A stretch of 64,000 nt of DNA from Tepiditoga spiralis (GTDB lineage Bacteria; Thermotogota; Thermotogae; Petrotogales; Petrotogaceae). The notes under the pieces were generated by a model. The model was not told where the DNA came from. It saw only the letters and a program-made list of their open reading frames with translations, and did no database searches. The DNA is taken from positions 1,382,501 through 1,446,500 of the forward strand of contig NZ_AP018712.1 in assembly GCF_014701195.1 (NCBI RefSeq), read 5' to 3'. Both the position numbers and the translations under genes were made by a program. Numbering within the stretch: the first letter of the stretch is position 1; each line of letters begins with the position of its first letter. This document shows positions 3,440 to 64,000 of this stretch, in pieces.

Positions 3440-4069
3440 ATGAAAAATCTTGAATTTATAAAAGAACTAAATAAAAAAGAAATAACTTTAAAAAAAGGAG
3501 AAATTCTGCATAATCAAAATGAACTAATAGAAAACTTATCTATTTTAAAAGAAGGTAGTTTAAAGGTTGTAAAGTATTTAACTACAGGAAAAGAAGTTTT
3601 GATAAATAATATAAAAAGTGGACAAATTTTTGGTGAAACATTGTTGTTTATAAATGAAAAGTATCCAGCTTATATAATAGCAGAAGAAAATTCCATTGTA
3701 ATTGAAATTAATAAAAATGAACTTTTAGTTTTAATGAAAAATGAAGAGTTTTTAGTAGAATACTTAAAAAATATTTCAAAAAAGATTTTAAATATGACAC
3801 AAAAACTTGAAATTTTTTCAATGAAAGACGCAAAACAAAGAGTTGCAAAATATTTATTAGATCTTTATGAAAAAAACGGAAATACTATAACTATGAAAGT
3901 ATCTAAGGTTAATATAGCAAAAGAGTTAGGGCTTACCCGAGAAACTGTTTCAAGGATACTTTCAAACTTTATAAAAGAAAAAATAGTGTATATAGAAAAA
4001 AACTTTATAAAAATTTTAAATATTAAAGAAATAGAAAATATAATTTATGAAACAAAAAACCGTGATTGA
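3440..4069 (+). CDS. Crp/Fnr-family transcriptional regulator
   Basis: Cytoplasmic DNA-binding regulator of about 209 aa. The N-terminal half is a cyclic-nucleotide-type effector domain (EILHNQNELIENLSILKEG ... GQIFGETLLF). The C-terminal half has a Crp-type helix-turn-helix (VSKVNIAKELGLTRETVSRIL, about residues 155-175). No cysteines are present, so an Fnr-like iron-sulfur sensor is unlikely. Two ATGs occur at 3437 and 3440; AAGGAG at 3429-3434 is better spaced from the second. It sits directly upstream of the split permease, on the same strand but separated by a terminator, so it may regulate that pair. The effector is unknown. Confidence 0.9.
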   Translation: MKNLEFIKELNKKEITLKKGEILHNQNELIENLSILKEGSLKVVKYLTTGKEVLINNIKSGQIFGETLLFINEKYPAYIIAEENSIVIEINKNELLVLMKNEEFLVEYLKNISKKILNMTQKLEIFSMKDAKQRVAKYLLDLYEKNGNTITMKVSKVNIAKELGLTRETVSRILSNFIKEKIVYIEKNFIKILNIKEIENIIYETKNRD

Positions 4070-4090
4070 AATCACGGTTTTTTGTTTTTT
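4054..4090 (+). terminator. Rho-independent terminator overlapping the end of the Crp/Fnr gene
   Basis: Thirteen-base arms (4054-4066 and 4071-4083) flank the loop TGAA and are followed by a T-rich tract. The TGA stop codon of the preceding gene (4067-4069) is the loop itself. Confidence 0.85.
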
Positions 4091-4097
4091 TATTGTG

Positions 4098-4103
4098 TAT
4101 AAT
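4098..4103 (+). promoter_or_regulatory. Probable -10 box for the permease pair
   Basis: TATAAT preceded by TGTG (extended -10 type), 34 bases before the permease ATG and just past the upstream terminator. No good -35 is visible because the terminator T-tract occupies that position, so an activator may be needed. Confidence 0.4.
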
Positions 4104-4136
4104 AAATGTACATACAGCACAAAAGGAGAGTGAATT

Positions 4137-4613
4137 ATGAATACAATAATATTAATTTCATTAGCTGTAATATTATTTATTTGGTCTATTATAAAAAGTA
4201 AAAAGAAAACAAAAGCGAGTTTAAAAATTGCAAAAGGAATGTTTTTGGGAATGGTTTCAGAATTAATAGGGATTATGGCAATAGTTGCATTAGTTTTATC
4301 TTATTTACCACCAGATTTAATAAAAAAATTATTGGGTAATTCTAATTTGTTTTTAAGTTCTATTTATGGAGCAGTAATTGGAACTATAACAATTATTCCA
4401 GCTTTCATAGCATTTCCTTTATCAAAATCTTTGTATGAATCAGGGGCTAATTTAGTTGCAATTGCTGCATTTATAACAACATTAACCATGGTTGGATTTG
4501 CAACTATGCCAATAGAAATAGAACACTTTGGTAAAAAATTTACTTTTTATAGAAACTTTTTGAGTTTTGTATTTGCACTTGTAGTTGCTCTTGGAATGGC
4601 GGTGATATTATGA
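4137..4613 (+). CDS. Permease subunit, DUF318/UPF0718 (ArsP-like) half A
   Basis: Integral membrane protein of 158 aa with four or five hydrophobic segments. The motif AFIAFPLSKSLYESGAN (about residues 93-109) matches AAFPVAQSLYFKGAS in the next gene, so the two look like homologous halves of one transporter. Family members of roughly double length are called permeases (YraQ/ArsP-like); the substrate here is unknown. GGAG precedes the ATG. The stop overlaps the next start as ATGA, indicating one translational unit. Confidence 0.7.
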   Translation: MNTIILISLAVILFIWSIIKSKKKTKASLKIAKGMFLGMVSELIGIMAIVALVLSYLPPDLIKKLLGNSNLFLSSIYGAVIGTITIIPAFIAFPLSKSLYESGANLVAIAAFITTLTMVGFATMPIEIEHFGKKFTFYRNFLSFVFALVVALGMAVIL

Positions 4614-5287
4614 ATTTTATAAAAAAGAATAAAATACTTGTAGTGGCAATAGTACTTTATGTAATAACATTTTTTTATAATAGAGGTATATTCAATAATT
4701 CTTTAATAATGACAAAAAATTTTTTAGTTGAAATGTTAGAAATAATGCCAGCTATTATGATTATATCAGGACTAATAAATATTTGGGTTCCACAAGAAGT
4801 AATCATAAAAAATTTTGGAAAGAGTTCTGGATTAAAAGGAAAATTATTTTCAATGTTGATAGGTTCATTTTCAGCAGGACCAATTTATGCAGCTTTTCCT
4901 GTTGCACAATCGTTGTACTTTAAAGGTGCAAGTATAGCAAATGTAGTAATAATAATAAGTTCTTGGGCAGTTACAAAATGGGTTATGTTTATGGTAGAGT
5001 CCAGCTTTTTAGGATTAAAATTTGCATTAACGAGATATGCTTTAACAATACCCATGATTTTAATTATGGGATATATAATGGAAAAACTTGTTCATAAAGA
5101 AGATATGATTGAAGAAAAAGAAGAAATTAAAAAAATTATAGAAGGTTCAAAAGAATATTATTTACAAAAATTACCTCAAAAAAACTGTGGAGCATGTGGA
5201 TATGGAAACTGTGAAAATTTTGCAATTGCTTTGAGTAAAAAAGAAACCAATATAAATAAATGTGTGTTTTTAAAATCTAAAAATTAA
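4610..5287 (+). CDS. Permease subunit half B with C-terminal 4Fe-4S domain
   Basis: This 225-aa protein has about five membrane segments (residues 1-160), then a charged linker. The C-terminal domain holds Cys193, 196, 201 and 218 in the pattern Cx2Cx4Cx16C, beginning CGACGYGNC. That pattern is the four-cysteine Fe-S domain known from RnfB and corrinoid Fe-S proteins (PF04060 type). The membrane part resembles half A and carries the same proline/SLY/G signature. A cytoplasmic cluster on a permease suggests redox-gated transport or assembly with an electron carrier; this is inference. Confidence 0.7.
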   Translation: MNFIKKNKILVVAIVLYVITFFYNRGIFNNSLIMTKNFLVEMLEIMPAIMIISGLINIWVPQEVIIKNFGKSSGLKGKLFSMLIGSFSAGPIYAAFPVAQSLYFKGASIANVVIIISSWAVTKWVMFMVESSFLGLKFALTRYALTIPMILIMGYIMEKLVHKEDMIEEKEEIKKIIEGSKEYYLQKLPQKNCGACGYGNCENFAIALSKKETNINKCVFLKSKN

Positions 5288-5303
5288 TATAAATATAAAT
5301 ATA

Positions 5304-5346
5304 AAAAAAAGAGCTTTAATTTATATAATTAATGCTCTTTTTTTAT
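5304..5346 (+). terminator. Terminator after the permease pair
   Basis: An 11-base stem (A-tract plus GAGC paired with GCTC plus T-tract) with a long AT loop, ending in seven T residues. Confidence 0.7.
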
Positions 5347-5353
5347 ATATAAA

Positions 5354-5382
5354 TTGACTTAAAAATTAAAAAATGATACAAT
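5354..5382 (+). promoter_or_regulatory. Sigma-70-type promoter for the 5.5 kb gene
   Basis: TTGACT at 5354-5359, a 17-base spacer, TACAAT at 5377-5382. It lies about 125 bases upstream of the coding start, giving a long AT-rich leader. Confidence 0.6.
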
Positions 5383-5511
5383 TATTTTGTTTTAGAAAAT
5401 ATTTCGATTTAATCATATATATAATTAAATTTTTATAAATAATTCAAATGATTAATTAATTTTGTTAAAAAGAATAATTTATGAAAAATAATATGGAATG
5501 GAGGGATTTAT

Positions 5512-6303
5512 TTGAAAAAGTATTTTTTTATTATGGTTTTATTAGTGAGTGTGATTTTTTTAGGCGAAGATTTTAGAAATATTTTTCAAAAATCTGGAAC
5601 AAAACTTGGTTTTTATCTTGCATCTAAAATAGGAGATAGTGTTGTTGGAATTCTTCCTTTTGAGGGTAATGATAAAGAAAAGTCTACGCTTGTTTCCGAT
5701 ATATATTCATATTATTTGATGGAAAACAATATAAAAATAGTAGACAGAAAAGAATTGGAAAAAGTAATAAAAGAAATAAAATTATCAATGCTTGGAATAA
5801 CAGATATAAAAAATTCAAATAAATTGGGGAATTTGATAAGTGCAGATTATTTATTAACAGGAAATATTAAAAAATTGGGAGATATATATTATATAAATAT
5901 AAAAGTAATAAAAGTTTCTACTGGAGAAAGTATTTATACAGATAGTATAAATTTTGAAGATAAAGAATTTATTACTATAAAAAAAGTAGAAGAGTATTTT
6001 GCTGAAAGAAAATATCCATCAACAGCATTGTTTAGGTCAGCATTGATACCTGGATGGGGGCAAATGTATAATGATCAACCAATAAAAGGAGGTATATTTG
6101 GAATAAGTATGATTGGATCGATATCATTGGATTTATATTTTTTTAATGAGTATCAAAAATATTTGAATTCTACAAATGAAGAAATGTATGATAAAGATTT
6201 AAAAAAGGCAAATGATTACAATAAATACTTTTTAATTAGTTTTGGAACAACAATAGCTATTTGGATAATAAATATGGCAGATGCTTATATTAATGCAAAG
6301 TGA
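5512..6303 (+). CDS. Exported protein with CsgG/FlgO-like domain and DUF5683-like C-terminus
   Basis: The 263-aa protein begins with a hydrophobic signal (residues 1-20). Residues 40-165 (VVGILPFEGNDKEK ... ADYLLTGNIKKLG ... STGESIY) resemble the CsgG/FlgO/TolB-N fold of envelope lipoproteins, where a stress or assembly factor gathers at the outer membrane. The C-terminal part has SALIPGWGQMYNDQP followed by two hydrophobic helices, the signature I associate with DUF5683. The start codon is TTG at 5512, supported by GGAGGG six bases upstream. The next gene begins about 20 bases after its stop, so it may help place the giant lipoprotein. Confidence 0.6.
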   Translation: MKKYFFIMVLLVSVIFLGEDFRNIFQKSGTKLGFYLASKIGDSVVGILPFEGNDKEKSTLVSDIYSYYLMENNIKIVDRKELEKVIKEIKLSMLGITDIKNSNKLGNLISADYLLTGNIKKLGDIYYINIKVIKVSTGESIYTDSINFEDKEFITIKKVEEYFAERKYPSTALFRSALIPGWGQMYNDQPIKGGIFGISMIGSISLDLYFFNEYQKYLNSTNEEMYDKDLKKANDYNKYFLISFGTTIAIWIINMADAYINAK

Positions 6304-57979: not shown

Positions 57980-58003
57980 AAAAAATCCCAGTATTACTGG
58001 GAC
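57980..58003 (-). terminator. Terminator after the peptide-exporter genes
   Basis: AGTCCCAGT / ACTGGGA hairpin, followed on the minus strand by eight T residues. It may also stop plus-strand transcription from the small-protein gene. Confidence 0.75.
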
Positions 58004-58054
58004 TATGTCTTTTTTATTTTTTAACCATTTAAAGAAGAGTTTTTACATAAAGTA

Positions 58055-59863
58055 TTATATTCTATCACATTTTTCATATAACTCTGATTGTGAATACCAT
58101 AATTTTTTGTAATATACCGAATTTTTTAATAATTCACTGTGCTCTCCCACATCAACTATTTTTTTATTATCCATAATTATTATTTTATTACAATACTTTA
58201 TAGAAGCTAATCTATGTGTTATTATTATCGCTATTTTATTTTTGCTTATTTCTTCAAATTTTTCATATAATTCATTTTCAGAAATGGGATCAAGTGCTGC
58301 TGTTGGTTCATCAAGAACTATGATATCATAATTTTTAAAGATTCCTCTTGCTATAGCAACTTTTTGCCACTGCCCTCCAGAAAGTTCTGTACCTTCAAAT
58401 TCCTTTGATAATACTGTATTTAATCCTTTAATAAACTTTTTATCTAAAGAATTTATACCAACAGAATTCAAAATATCTTCTATTTTATCTTCTTCATTTT
58501 TATTTTTAATATTACTAATAGCAATATTTTCTTTTAAAGTTATTTTATATCTATTAAATTTTTGAAATACAGCAGTTCCTTTATTCCTTATTGATTTTAA
58601 TGATAACAATGATGAAGGAACTTCATTATAACATATTTCACCACTTGTTGGTTTGTACAATCCTAATATTAATTTTGAAAGAGTTGTTTTTCCTGCCCCA
58701 TTTTTTCCAATAACTGCTATTCTATCTCCTTTTTTTATTTTTAAATTAATATTTTTAATTGCTTCTTTTCCCGTTGGATATGTAAAAGATACATTCTTTA
58801 ATTCAATACTTTTTATTTCTTCAACAATATTTTTTAATCTTTTATTTTTTTTAGAATTCTCAATTAAATTTAAAAAATTTATATATTTTTTTACTTTTCC
58901 ATATACTGCAATACTATCTCCCAATCTATATTCAAATATTTCTTCCATTAGTCCAAAAAGATTTGAAAGAGAGATATATACTGCTGCAAAAGTACCTATT
59001 GTAATTTCATTTTTCATAATTAAATATATAGTTAATCCAAGAACTCCAATATAACCAATAATAGTCATTAATTTTGATATTGAATCTATTTTATTTACTT
59101 TTTTTTGATAAATTAATCTCAAATTATGGTACTCATTGGATGTTTTATTAAAAAGTTTGAATATATAATTAATTGCATTTAGTGTTCTTGTTTCTTTTAA
59201 GTAATTTTTATTTTTTATGTATGAAGAATATATATTTTTTTTCCTTCTTAATGGAGCATGATTTTCTTCAAGTTTTTCATAATAACTTTTTTTTATTATT
59301 TGTGAAAATAATACTGGAAAAAATATAAACAACATACTTATTCCTAAAATAGGATTTAAAGAAACCAAATAAATTTCTATAAATAAATAGTATGGTAAGT
59401 ATAAAAACAACAAATCCATAATTACATTTAAAACCCTACGTACAGATTTTGCTCCTACAATGGCAGAATTTACAAAATCTCTATTTTCAGAGTTGTTAAA
59501 AAAATTTGGTGATATTTTTGCAATTTTTAAGTTTAAATTTTTTAAAAGTGTTTTTAAGGTCATATCGTGATAATATTCCCCAAAGTATTCAGATATTCCA
59601 CTTGATACTTCTGATATAATAATAAAAACCGTTAAATATATGAGTTCTACGATAATATTTTTCAAATTTTTATTGTTTATTCCAATAACACTATCAAAAA
59701 CTTTTTGCATCTGATATGTTGTAAGCCCTAAGAATATTGCATCTAATACTGAAAAAAAATACTGTGAAAAAAATTTTATTGGTGATATTTTAATAATATC
59801 TACAAAAACATGAAAGATATTTATTTTTTTTTTATTCACCATACCATCTTCTTTGTTTTTCAT
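58055..59863 (-). CDS. ABC exporter subunit 2 (membrane plus ATPase) of the RiPP cluster
   Basis: 602-aa half-transporter: about six helices (residues 20-330), then a nucleotide-binding domain with Walker A IGKNGAGKTTLSK, signature LSGGQWQKVAIARG, Walker B IIVLDEPTAALDP and H-loop ITHRL. No C39 peptidase domain precedes the membrane part, so it cannot itself cut a leader. It overlaps the other exporter gene by 32 bases; ATGs at 59863 or 59842 are possible starts. Probably forms a heterodimer with subunit 1. Confidence 0.88.
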   Translation of the reverse strand: MKNKEDGMVNKKKINIFHVFVDIIKISPIKFFSQYFFSVLDAIFLGLTTYQMQKVFDSVIGINNKNLKNIIVELIYLTVFIIISEVSSGISEYFGEYYHDMTLKTLLKNLNLKIAKISPNFFNNSENRDFVNSAIVGAKSVRRVLNVIMDLLFLYLPYYLFIEIYLVSLNPILGISMLFIFFPVLFSQIIKKSYYEKLEENHAPLRRKKNIYSSYIKNKNYLKETRTLNAINYIFKLFNKTSNEYHNLRLIYQKKVNKIDSISKLMTIIGYIGVLGLTIYLIMKNEITIGTFAAVYISLSNLFGLMEEIFEYRLGDSIAVYGKVKKYINFLNLIENSKKNKRLKNIVEEIKSIELKNVSFTYPTGKEAIKNINLKIKKGDRIAVIGKNGAGKTTLSKLILGLYKPTSGEICYNEVPSSLLSLKSIRNKGTAVFQKFNRYKITLKENIAISNIKNKNEEDKIEDILNSVGINSLDKKFIKGLNTVLSKEFEGTELSGGQWQKVAIARGIFKNYDIIVLDEPTAALDPISENELYEKFEEISKNKIAIIITHRLASIKYCNKIIIMDNKKIVDVGEHSELLKNSVYYKKLWYSQSELYEKCDRI

Positions 59864-61610
59864 ACATTTTATAATAAACTCCTCTTTTATCTAATAGTTC
59901 ATTATGAGTTCCTCTTTCAATAACTTCACCATTTGAAAAAACAAGCACTATATCTGTATATTTTACTCCTCCCAATCTGTGTGTAATTAAAATTTTCATT
60001 GATTTAAAAGGTACTGAAAAAAATTTTTCAAATATACTTCTTTCAGAAATAGGATCAAGTGCTGCTGTTGGTTCATCAAATATTTGTATTGGAGCGTTTC
60101 TATACAAAGCCCTTGCTATAGCAACTTTTTGCCATTGTCCTTCTGAAAGATTGTTCCCTTTACTTTCTATATAACCTAATACTGTTTTTTCTTTTTCAGG
60201 TAATTTTTCTATAACTTCTTTAACTTCACTTATTTTTATTACTTCGTCAAACAATTTATCATCACATTTTTTTATATCTTTCATTTTTATATTTTCTTCA
60301 AATGAAATGGAATACCTTACATAATCCTGATAAACAACAGAAAAATATTCATACCATTCTTCTAATGATAGATTTTTTTGATTTTTTCCATTTATTAGTA
60401 TCTCACCTTCATAATCTTCATACAATCCAAGCATTAACTTTATAATTGTTGTTTTTCCTGCTCCATTTTCTCCGACAAAAGCATATGTTTTTCCTTTTTC
60501 TAATACAAAATTTAAATTTTTTAAAATCCATTTATTTGAATTTGGATACTTAAAAGATACATTTTTAAACTCTATTTTTTCTACATCTTTTTTGTTTATT
60601 TTTTTGATACTATTTTTTCTTCTCACTTCAGGAAATTTCATAAAATTCTCAAAATCTTTCATATAATTTATTCTTTTTATTATATCTTTTACTATATTAG
60701 AAAATGTCCATGACATTGGATGAATTAAATTAAATACTGCACCAGTAATACTTATAAACATACCTGAAGTTATTTTTCCAAAAGTTAGAATATAAAGTAA
60801 ACTTGCTGAGATACCAAATGCTAACAATGACATTAAAAAACTTAACCCTTTTATTTTTGCAATATTTTTTAAAGTAATTTTTATATCAATTTTTCTTCCT
60901 TTTTCATATAAATTTTCAAATTCATTTGCTATTTCATTTCCATAATTAAATAATACTCTTTCATCAACCATTTCTTCGGAATTCAACATTGTATCATATA
61001 CTTTTGCTCTTCTAAAAAACTTCATTGATTTTGTGTATGAATCATATTCTTTTTCTCCACTATAATATGCTACTACTGCCATAAATATTAGCAATATAAA
61101 CACTATTGAACTAATTAATATACTACTCTCTAATATTATTATTGATATAGAAAATATTTCAACTATTATTTTAAAAAAAGAACTTATTTCTTCTAAAGCA
61201 GAAGTTATAGCATTTTCAGAATTTTCATAAATTCTTTCAATTAATTCATAATTTTCATGATTTTCAAGAACTTCATACTTTAATTTTGAACTTTTTTTTA
61301 TAATGTCTCCTTCAAATTTAAAATCTACCCTTTTAGACAATCTTACATAAAGTTCTTTTGATATTAAATTTATTAAATAATTTATAAAAAATAACACAAA
61401 AAATAATATTGAAATATAAATAAAGTTAGAGTTTATAGTTTTAGTTTTTATAATAACTTGTGCAGCATCAATAAAATAAGCTACCACAAGTATTTTTATG
61501 GCTGGCGTCATATAATTAATTACTTCAATAATACTATATACACTAAATATCAGAGGCGCATTTTTTAAAGAATACAATATATATTTTATAATTAATTTTA
61601 TTTTATTCAT
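59832..61610 (-). CDS. ABC exporter subunit 1 (membrane plus ATPase) of the RiPP cluster
   Basis: 592-aa half-transporter. Walker A VGENGAGKTTIIK, signature degenerated to LSEGQWQKVAIARAL, Walker B IQIFDEPTAALDP, H-loop ITHRLGG. The SEGQ signature suggests one weaker ATP site, usual in heterodimeric exporters. No peptidase domain. AAGGAG precedes the ATG. It follows the precursor gene after a 177-base gap that holds two inverted repeats. Confidence 0.88.
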   Translation of the reverse strand: MNKIKLIIKYILYSLKNAPLIFSVYSIIEVINYMTPAIKILVVAYFIDAAQVIIKTKTINSNFIYISILFFVLFFINYLINLISKELYVRLSKRVDFKFEGDIIKKSSKLKYEVLENHENYELIERIYENSENAITSALEEISSFFKIIVEIFSISIIILESSILISSIVFILLIFMAVVAYYSGEKEYDSYTKSMKFFRRAKVYDTMLNSEEMVDERVLFNYGNEIANEFENLYEKGRKIDIKITLKNIAKIKGLSFLMSLLAFGISASLLYILTFGKITSGMFISITGAVFNLIHPMSWTFSNIVKDIIKRINYMKDFENFMKFPEVRRKNSIKKINKKDVEKIEFKNVSFKYPNSNKWILKNLNFVLEKGKTYAFVGENGAGKTTIIKLMLGLYEDYEGEILINGKNQKNLSLEEWYEYFSVVYQDYVRYSISFEENIKMKDIKKCDDKLFDEVIKISEVKEVIEKLPEKEKTVLGYIESKGNNLSEGQWQKVAIARALYRNAPIQIFDEPTAALDPISERSIFEKFFSVPFKSMKILITHRLGGVKYTDIVLVFSNGEVIERGTHNELLDKRGVYYKMYEKQRRWYGE

Positions 61611-61656
61611 TATTTTTTCTCCTTCTAAAAATATGCTAAATGAATACTTAAAAATA

Positions 61657-61725
61657 CATAGAAATAAAAAAATTTTTATATAATATTCATTAAGAATCTG
61701 ATAAATAGACTTTTTTATTTCTATG
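61657..61725. promoter_or_regulatory. 15-bp inverted repeat between precursor and exporter genes
   Basis: CATAGAAATAAAAAA (61657-61671) and its exact complement (61711-61725) are 39 bases apart. On the minus strand the second arm is T-rich and could end the precursor transcript. Confidence 0.5.
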
Positions 61726-61753
61726 CTTAGGAATTAATTTCATTAAATTACTG

Positions 61754-61780
61754 TAACCTACAGGTAACACCTGTAGGTTA
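61754..61780. promoter_or_regulatory. Perfect 12-bp hairpin just after the precursor gene
   Basis: TAACCTACAGGT, loop AAC, ACCTGTAGGTTA. No T-tract follows on the minus strand, so it is more likely an mRNA-stabilising or processing hairpin than a full terminator. That would raise precursor output over the exporters. Confidence 0.7.
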
Positions 61781-61787
61781 TAATGTA

Positions 61788-61895
61788 CTAATTACAAAAA
61801 ACACTACGACTCTTTCCGTTACATGTTCCTTTTCCACAGCCATCAATTTCTATAACTACTTTTGATACTTTTACAATAGGTTCTTTATAATCCAT
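61788..61895 (-). CDS. Putative RiPP precursor peptide, 35 aa, three cysteines
   Basis: The minus strand from ATG 61895 encodes a short charged leader (MDYKEPIVKVSKVVIEI, residues 1-17) and a Gly/Cys-rich core starting DGCGKGTCNGKS and ending SVFCN. The cysteines are at 20, 25 and 34. The ribosome site AGGAGA lies six bases upstream, inside the last codons of the radical SAM gene, whose stop is only 4 bases before. Position, size, leader/core split and Cys content fit a radical-SAM-modified peptide (sacti- or ranthipeptide-like). The class is not certain. It is too short for normal gene calling. Confidence 0.75.
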   Translation of the reverse strand: MDYKEPIVKVSKVVIEIDGCGKGTCNGKSRSVFCN

Positions 61896-61899
61896 TTTT

Positions 61900-62943
61900 C
61901 TATCTCCTTTCAGAATCAATAATATATTTTAATGCTTTAGCATTTTGTTTATTTATTGATGAACAACCAAATAAATCATTATCTTCTGAATAAGCCAAAC
62001 CAGGACATCTATTACAAATATTTTCAAGATCACAATTCTTACATTCTTCTAATTCTTTATTTGTTAAATTATATATAAATTTAAGATCTGAAGAATTATA
62101 CCAAATATCCTTTAAAGATTGCTTTTTCAAATCACCAACTTTATATAAAAATGAATTACAAGGATAAACATTTTTATTTGAATCTATATATAAGCTATAT
62201 CTTGTATTTGGACAAACATCATCTAAATTTTTTTTATCTTTTAAGTTTTTTCTGTTAACATTTATATTCAAGTTAAAATTTTTATTAAATTCTATTAAAT
62301 CATTAAAATCTAAAGAATTATCTTTAGGAGAAGAATCTCCATTTATTTTTGACATTATTGTTGGATTTGGGGAATATAAAAAATCATTTATATTACAAAA
62401 TTCTTGTAAATATTTATATGAATATTTATTTTGTTGCATTATAGGAGTTTTTATTTCTAAACTTATTCCTTTATTTTTCATTTTCATAATATTTGATAAT
62501 ATTTTTTTTAATGATCCTTTTACTCCTGTAATTTTGTCATTAATTTCTTCATTTAATGAAAATATTGTTGTGGAAAATTCAGTAATATATAATTTTGAAA
62601 GCTGTTCAATTTGAGAATCATTAATAAGTGTTGCATTACTTAATAATGTTACACGAAAACCCATTTCTCTCGCTTTTTTTATAATTTCCATAATATCAGG
62701 ATGTAAAAAGATTTCTCCACCTGTTAATATTGTTTCTAATGTACCTAATTTTTTTAATTCTTCAAATAAATCAAGAATAAATGAATATTCTAGACCTTTA
62801 TTATCATGTTTTGGAATATAACAATGTAAACATTTTAAATTACACAATGTCAAAAGTTCAATAGTTGCAATTAATGGAATTCTCCTTTTATAAGCGTTTT
62901 TTACAATCGTCTGAAAAGAAAAAGTATTATCAATTATCATCAT
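61900..62943 (-). CDS. Radical SAM/SPASM peptide maturase
   Basis: 347 aa. It starts with the radical-SAM cluster motif CNLKCLHC (Cys34, 38, 41), then LTGGEIFLHPDI (SAM-binding GGE) and VTLLSNATL. The C-terminal SPASM region has a Cys set (CPNTRYSLYID, YPCNSF, ECKNCDLENICNRCPG, FGCSS) able to hold auxiliary Fe-S clusters. Such enzymes form thioether or C-C links in ribosomal peptides. The ATG at 62943 overlaps the PqqD-like gene stop; the ATG at 62940 is better spaced from GAGGTA. Expected substrate: the adjoining 35-aa peptide. Confidence 0.93.
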   Translation of the reverse strand: MMIIDNTFSFQTIVKNAYKRRIPLIATIELLTLCNLKCLHCYIPKHDNKGLEYSFILDLFEELKKLGTLETILTGGEIFLHPDIMEIIKKAREMGFRVTLLSNATLINDSQIEQLSKLYITEFSTTIFSLNEEINDKITGVKGSLKKILSNIMKMKNKGISLEIKTPIMQQNKYSYKYLQEFCNINDFLYSPNPTIMSKINGDSSPKDNSLDFNDLIEFNKNFNLNINVNRKNLKDKKNLDDVCPNTRYSLYIDSNKNVYPCNSFLYKVGDLKKQSLKDIWYNSSDLKFIYNLTNKELEECKNCDLENICNRCPGLAYSEDNDLFGCSSINKQNAKALKYIIDSERR

Positions 62944-63224
62944 ATTACCTCAATAACTTCTTGAATAACAAGATCATTAATAAATTTTTTTAAATCTTTG
63001 CTAATAGTATCAGATGAAGTAGAATAAAATTTATTTTTTAATGTTTCTAATAATTTAGGAACGCTTTTTAAAATTACTAAATATTTCCAAAAATAAACCG
63101 CAACGCCTTCTAATAAAATATTAAATTTTGTCCTTTCGTCAATTATATAAACAAAATCATCATAATTTTGCCATGAAATCCATTTAGAAATTTTTATTTC
63201 TTTTTTTAATAAATCCTTATCCAT
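62940..63224 (-). CDS. PqqD-like peptide recognition protein (RRE)
   Basis: 94-aa small protein, first gene of the cluster. WISWQNYDDFVYIIDERTKF, then NILLEGVAVYFWKYL and a C-terminal helix ending FINDLVIQEVIEVI fit the winged-helix PqqD/RRE build that binds leader peptides and presents them to the radical SAM enzyme. Start 63224 is chosen because GAGGAGGAA precedes it. The assignment rests on pattern and context, as the sequence is divergent. Confidence 0.7.
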   Translation of the reverse strand: MDKDLLKKEIKISKWISWQNYDDFVYIIDERTKFNILLEGVAVYFWKYLVILKSVPKLLETLKNKFYSTSSDTISKDLKKFINDLVIQEVIEVI

Positions 63225-63779: not shown

Positions 63780-63810
63780 ATAATCCCAGCACCCGCTGGG
63801 ATTATATTTT
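63780..63810 (-). terminator. Terminator of the AAA-ATPase gene at the right edge
   Basis: An 11-base perfect stem ATAATCCCAGC / GCTGGGATTAT, loop ACCCG. The gene's TAA lies inside one arm, and T residues follow on the minus strand. Confidence 0.8.
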
Positions 63811-64000
63811 TTCTATTTTGTATTCGTCTATGTTTCTTTTTTCTGAGTTTATGTTTATTCCTATTATATAAATTTCTTTTCCTTTGTATTTTTCATAGTA
63901 CTTCATTTCTTTTATTTGATTTAAGGCTTTTTCTGCACTCTTGTCTATCTTTATTTCCATTATGTATATGACGTCTTCCTCTATTACTATATCGCTTCTT
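63802..64000 (-). CDS. AAA-ATPase/PD-(D/E)XK nuclease superfamily protein, C-terminal 65 residues (cut by the right edge)
   Basis: I translated the minus strand into an open frame ending at TAA 63802. It reads RSDIVIEEDVIYIMEIKIDKS, then ALNQIKEMKYYEKYKGKEIYIIGI and SEKRNIDEYKIEKI. This is the nuclease-type tail (D, E-x-K) of the same broad family as the 28.2 kb gene, though of another subgroup. The N-terminal ATPase domain is beyond the window. Confidence 0.85.
   Translation of the reverse strand, partial: RSDIVIEEDVIYIMEIKIDKSAEKALNQIKEMKYYEKYKGKEIYIIGININSEKRNIDEYKIEKI

Follow-up and report, generated by a model that had tools for sequence, protein, structure and literature searches.

A candidate KIS/SSH-type radical-SAM RiPP operon with an unannotated precursor peptide in Tepiditoga spiralis

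The window, a stretch of 64,000 nucleotides from the Tepiditoga spiralis genome, carries a compact gene cluster on its minus strand (58055 to 63224) with the transcription order RRE, radical SAM/SPASM maturase, precursor peptide, hairpin, two ABC exporter halves (ABC1 and ABC2), and terminator (Table 1). Packing is tight within the RRE-maturase-precursor trio and within the exporter pair. The RRE and maturase frames overlap in an ATGA, 4 nt separate the maturase from the precursor, and ABC1 and ABC2 overlap by 32 nt. Strong ribosome-binding sites lie ahead of the RRE and precursor start codons. Promoter-like sites were no more frequent than in shuffled sequence, and therefore no promoter is claimed. 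The ORF and Pfam analyses bear out the first-pass annotation, which had described a compact radical-SAM RiPP cluster with these parts in this order on one strand. They also agree with its statements that only a leader peptidase is missing from the pathway, as no such gene was found in the cluster or among the surrounding ORFs, and that neither exporter has a C39 domain (no Pfam match). The upstream neighbor, at positions 63802 to 64000 (minus strand), is the C-terminal part of a protein of 514 aa, judged by eye to be AAA-ATPase-like at its N terminus and nuclease-like at its C terminus.

Table 1. Features of the candidate RiPP operon and its terminator in the window
Feature	Position	Strand	Details
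RRE	62940-63224	minus	94 aa from ATG at 63224; open frame to 63254; AGGAGG before ATG
Radical SAM/SPASM maturase	61900-62943	minus	347 aa; ATGA overlap with RRE
Precursor peptide MDYKEPIVKVSKVVIEIDGCGKGTCNGKSRSVFCN	61788-61895	minus	35 aa; AAAGGAG 8-9 nt before ATG
Hairpin between precursor and exporters	61754-61780	minus	12-bp stem, without T run
ABC exporter half 1 (ABC1)	59832-61610	minus	592 aa; Pfam ABC_tran; without C39
ABC exporter half 2 (ABC2)	58055-59863	minus	602 aa; Pfam ABC_tran and ABC_membrane; without C39
Intrinsic terminator ending the operon	57984-58004	minus	9-pair stem, then T run

The precursor has no match in Pfam or PHROGs. A genome of the same family (G015) contains all five genes, arranged as in the window but in other surroundings, with MKYKKPIIKVSKIVVQTQGCKGGTCNGKSRSVFF as its precursor. 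At the DNA level the two loci are similar in two blocks, one reaching from the RRE start through the final base of the precursor stop codon and the other covering ABC1 through the end of ABC2; neither the spacer between these blocks nor either flank matches. The encoded proteins are 68 to 71% identical (maturase, 68%), except for the RRE (45%). Within the precursor, 13 of the 15 core positions (residues 19 to 33) are identical, compared to 10 of 18 in the leader. At approximately 0.66, the dN/dS ratio of the peptide is weak evidence by itself for so short a gene. A third precursor, MQFVITKAKPIIADEPMCKQGACNGASHSLTLM, is located upstream of an RRE, a maturase, and two exporters in an Oscillospiraceae genome (L016). 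The three peptides share the core CxxG[TA]CNGxS[RH]S, which was found at only one further place in all DNA collected for the analysis. A short Cys peptide thus adjoins homologues of the maturase, and in G015 frame and core have been kept while spacer and flanks have been lost. Judged by this conservation, the unannotated precursor proposed earlier is a real gene. The cysteines at positions 20, 25, and 34 were correctly placed as well, but only Cys20 and Cys25 recur in the relatives, being common to all three precursors, whereas Cys34 is confined to the window. The three-Cys core was rejected as a class signature, since the 68%-identical relative in G015 lacks the third cysteine.

Only 2 of the 103 genomes of the phylum carry the orthologue, and a third genome, G061, has a distant relative. 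In L016, the maturase is 39% identical to that of the window and the exporters pair one to one (ABC1 with exporter 1, 1e-115; ABC2 with exporter 2, 5e-131), while RRE identities to L016 and to a Macrococcoides plasmid locus (L012) are weak (20 to 26%). An empty-site comparison showed that the DUF1232 neighbor of the window cluster is missing in G015. Maturase relatives were absent from phage records, and the two in viral contigs are distant. Taken as a whole, the window holds a genuine natural-product cluster of a fairly rare sort, situated outside the streptococci, but its kind is not entirely new. A Tissierellia locus (L017) was rejected as a close intact relative. Its maturase is interrupted by an in-frame stop and its precursor is reduced to a leaderless, SSH-like core, CSGSTTHGPGTTNS (L017:3130-3400, plus strand), apparently the remains of a decayed cluster. 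In G061, a genome of the same class, a precursor candidate, MTYKKPKIVVTTKQVDSAKTVRCGARKHPPAC (L015:5219-5317, minus strand), and its maturase gene are separated by ORFs that resemble broken transposase fragments.

The RRE scores 21.4 bits against Pfam PqqD, under the cut-off of 23.4. Although this cut-off is not reached, both the profile comparison and the AF2 model identify a winged-helix RRE of the PqqD fold. The RRE family profile matches TbiB1 (5v1u; 6.8e-6) and a PqqD-family RRE, and the model (pLDDT 84; one alignment row from a plasmid record left out) has TbiB1 with bound leader as its closest PDB fold (TMq 0.76; rmsd 1.1 Å). Lasso RREs bind [Y/W]xxPx[L/V/I] leaders (PMC13381572), and the likeness to TbiB1 and other discrete lasso RREs extends to the precursor side: the leader motif is YKEPIV in the window, YKKPII in G015, and FKKPTI in SSH, and L016 keeps only KPII, without the Tyr of YxxP. 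The RRE would bind the leader through YKEPIV (YxxPxV) in the manner of lasso RREs and present the core to the maturase. Unlike in lasso systems, the modifying enzyme here is a radical SAM protein, and neither a lasso cyclase (asparagine-synthetase-like) nor a B2 transglutaminase-like peptidase was found in the cluster by ORF and Pfam analysis. Near 30 of 49 maturase relatives, a small sense-strand ORF carries [YF]x[KR]Px[ILVMF] followed by a Cys; the antisense strand gave 2. A YxxP-type leader therefore characterizes the wider maturase family in general. A few of these 30 ORFs may have arisen by chance, for example the L016 entry, which differs from the L016 precursor. The window cluster connects a lasso-type YxxP leader/RRE pair with a wide array of radical-SAM clusters from many phyla.

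The KIS family RaS-RiPP model (NF050044) is the sole NCBIfam match of all three precursors, with the core aligned over profile positions 18 to 36. In silico substitutions at Cys20, Cys25, Gly23, Asn26, and Gly27 cost 3.7 to 5.6 bits, Cys20 and Cys25 being the heaviest-weighted residues among those tested, and substitutions at Cys34 and Ser31 cost nothing. Locating the KIS motif at NGKxS was rejected, as writing NGKIS into the peptide lowered the score. The SSH profile (NF050043) does not match the window peptide; it matches the Macrococcoides peptide of L012 with 86 bits, above the cut-off. The maturases of the window, G015, L016, the decayed L017, and both Macrococcoides SSH maturases nevertheless form one clade (100/99), in which the window and SSH enzymes are 34 to 35% identical over the alignment. 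The two systems further share a discrete RRE, a C[NS]GxS core, and a [YF]xxPx[IV] leader. They differ in gene content: the window has a single maturase and a pair of ABC genes, whereas SSH has two maturases, one ABC gene that is more distant, and a single Cys. With its one maturase, separate RRE, and precursor of 35 aa, the compact window cluster is the simpler system for testing.

The maturase combines a CxxxCxxC site (CNLKCLHC) and SPASM cysteines (Pfam Radical_SAM, 1.9e-21; SPASM, 8e-10) with a location beside precursor and RRE. Its closest solved folds are the RiPP maturases SuiB, which ranks first, 5why/5wgg, and SkfB, and its top NCBIfam matches include heme enzymes. These relatives share the radical SAM and SPASM fold at identities of about 20%; the RRE model matches SuiB and 5why/5wgg as well, both of which are longer, whereas the RRE of the window is a separate protein. 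Radical SAM/SPASM homology alone does not fix the reaction. The maturase would abstract hydrogen in the CxxGTCNGxS core and close at least one intramolecular link. Cys25 is the single Cys that KIS-like and SSH precursors all retain, and Cys20 is kept across the KIS-like ones. By this comparison the most likely link is a thioether formed by Cys25, with a second probably arising from Cys20. A different radical reaction in the same cluster, be it an ether or C-C link, an epimerization, or a desaturation, with the cysteines left free or in a disulfide, is possible but the less probable outcome. Streptococcal RaS-RiPPs do yield Lys-Trp, ether, Arg-Tyr, allo-Thr, and didehydro-His products (PMC13361665), the conserved Asn, Gly, Ser, and Lys/Arg of the core could serve as sites, and the SSH cluster has two maturases yet one Cys. 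The invariance of Cys25 and the weight of Cys20 and Cys25 in the KIS profile speak against such a reaction, as do the thioether formers among the solved relatives (5why/5wgg and SkfB), though SuiB ranks first. For thioether formation as for the other reactions, the conserved core points to residues worth examining.

Against the KIS profile, the scores of the three precursors, 18.6 to 20.2 bits as proteins and 16.2 to 18.1 bits in the genome search (window, 19.5 bits with E 5.4e-4, and 17.7 bits), lie far under the cut-off of 70 bits, and the match covers 13 to 30 of the 55 profile positions. That the window holds a divergent true member of the described family is therefore doubtful, even though NF050044 is the best and only NCBIfam match of all three precursors at the same core positions. 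The likeness, traced through the profile only, lies in the CxxGxCNGxS core; the KIS motif itself was not found in the peptide, no Rgg/SHP regulator was seen by eye among the ORFs surrounding the cluster, and KIS is listed for S. suis only (PMC13361665), a different phylum. Given the low score and the maturase clade shared with SSH, the cluster was filed as KIS/SSH-like rather than KIS. The best reading of these sequence comparisons is a KIS/SSH-type radical-SAM RiPP outside the streptococci. The earlier suggestion that the core matches no known class does not hold, as the KIS model matches weakly but specifically and the maturase groups with SSH-cluster enzymes. The companion suggestion of a new product stands for the product, because the function of KIS and SSH is uncharacterized and no structure is shown for either in a 2026 review (PMC13361665), but not for the system: what is new is a rare variant of the KIS/SSH kind, and the kind itself was already known. 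More tentatively, the CxxGxCNGxS core might adopt an undescribed cross-link topology, such as a very small Cys25-Gly27 or Cys25-Ser29 ring plus a second ring from Cys20, in an undescribed multiphylum RiPP class with streptococcal KIS and SSH as branches.

In the KIS/SSH-type reading, ABC1 and ABC2 would act as a heterodimer that exports the product. As the exporters lack a C39 domain, the leader would be cut by another, unlinked protease encoded elsewhere. The product probably serves in antagonism or signaling between bacteria. The scheme as a whole, a working KIS/SSH-type operon with leader recruitment by the RRE, linkage by the maturase, heterodimeric export, and an unlinked protease, is one that we consider probable. 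Sequence and structure comparison supports its parts, their conservation, the RRE fold, the leader motif, and the clade; from RRE-leader binding and link chemistry to export, proteolysis, and bioactivity, the steps are ones that we infer.

It is very improbable that the peptide is instead a PQQ- or mycofactocin-like cofactor precursor with the two ABC genes as unrelated neighbors. A PqqD-like RRE beside a PqqE-like enzyme would suit such a role, and the RRE-binding leader motif also occurs in PQQ precursors (PMC13381572). The exporters, however, have one-to-one counterparts conserved next to these genes in both G015 and the Oscillospiraceae, and no cofactor-type genes were seen at the cluster. 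The window core is unlike PqqA. A chance origin of the 35-aa frame can be dismissed: short ORFs are common in AT-rich DNA, with dozens in the window, but two further genomes retain this one next to orthologous maturases, and similarity ends at its stop codon. A good ribosome-binding site precedes it in the window as well as in G015, and in each of the three whole genomes the top match of the KIS profile is the ORF adjoining the maturase.

The hairpin behind the precursor folds better than shuffled sequences (z -3.2). It was rejected as a canonical terminator, as it lacks a T run, and is probably an RNA-stabilizing or attenuating element. Hairpins of unrelated sequence also follow the precursors in G015 (z -5.1) and L016 (z -7.5), and their occurrence in all three loci suggests that they help to balance precursor against downstream message.

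Several other candidate clusters were encountered. The T. spiralis genome itself holds a second YxxP-leader RiPP candidate (L108, G000:C1:223500-233500), in which MYEKPEVKKVEKVYEKPVFLAKASSECGCGQGY (3754 down to 3653, minus strand) lies beside two radical SAM proteins (maturases at 3771-4790 and 4787-5734, both minus strand), an ABC transporter, and an intramembrane protease of the CPBP type; NCBIfam gave no match for the peptide. Near distant maturase relatives in Acidobacteriota (L018, L020, L021, L022, L024, L034, L045, and L061), a distinct precursor type, YxKP...[VI][FY]ET.AL[AST]CGK, was observed, and a search of NCBIfam with one such peptide gave no match. An identical 38-aa ORF, MSYSKPTVLAKSSTYMAQCRPNSKPSGRPCNPPGPSGR, without a listed gene, lies beside a recombinase on conjugative plasmids of E. 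coli and Photobacterium (L011:4365-4481 and L013:4363-4479, both plus strand). The ORF precedes a long radical SAM gene that apparently has its own N-terminal RRE, and similar peptides of the GRPC type occur in L030, L044, L054, L059, L066, L096, and L097.
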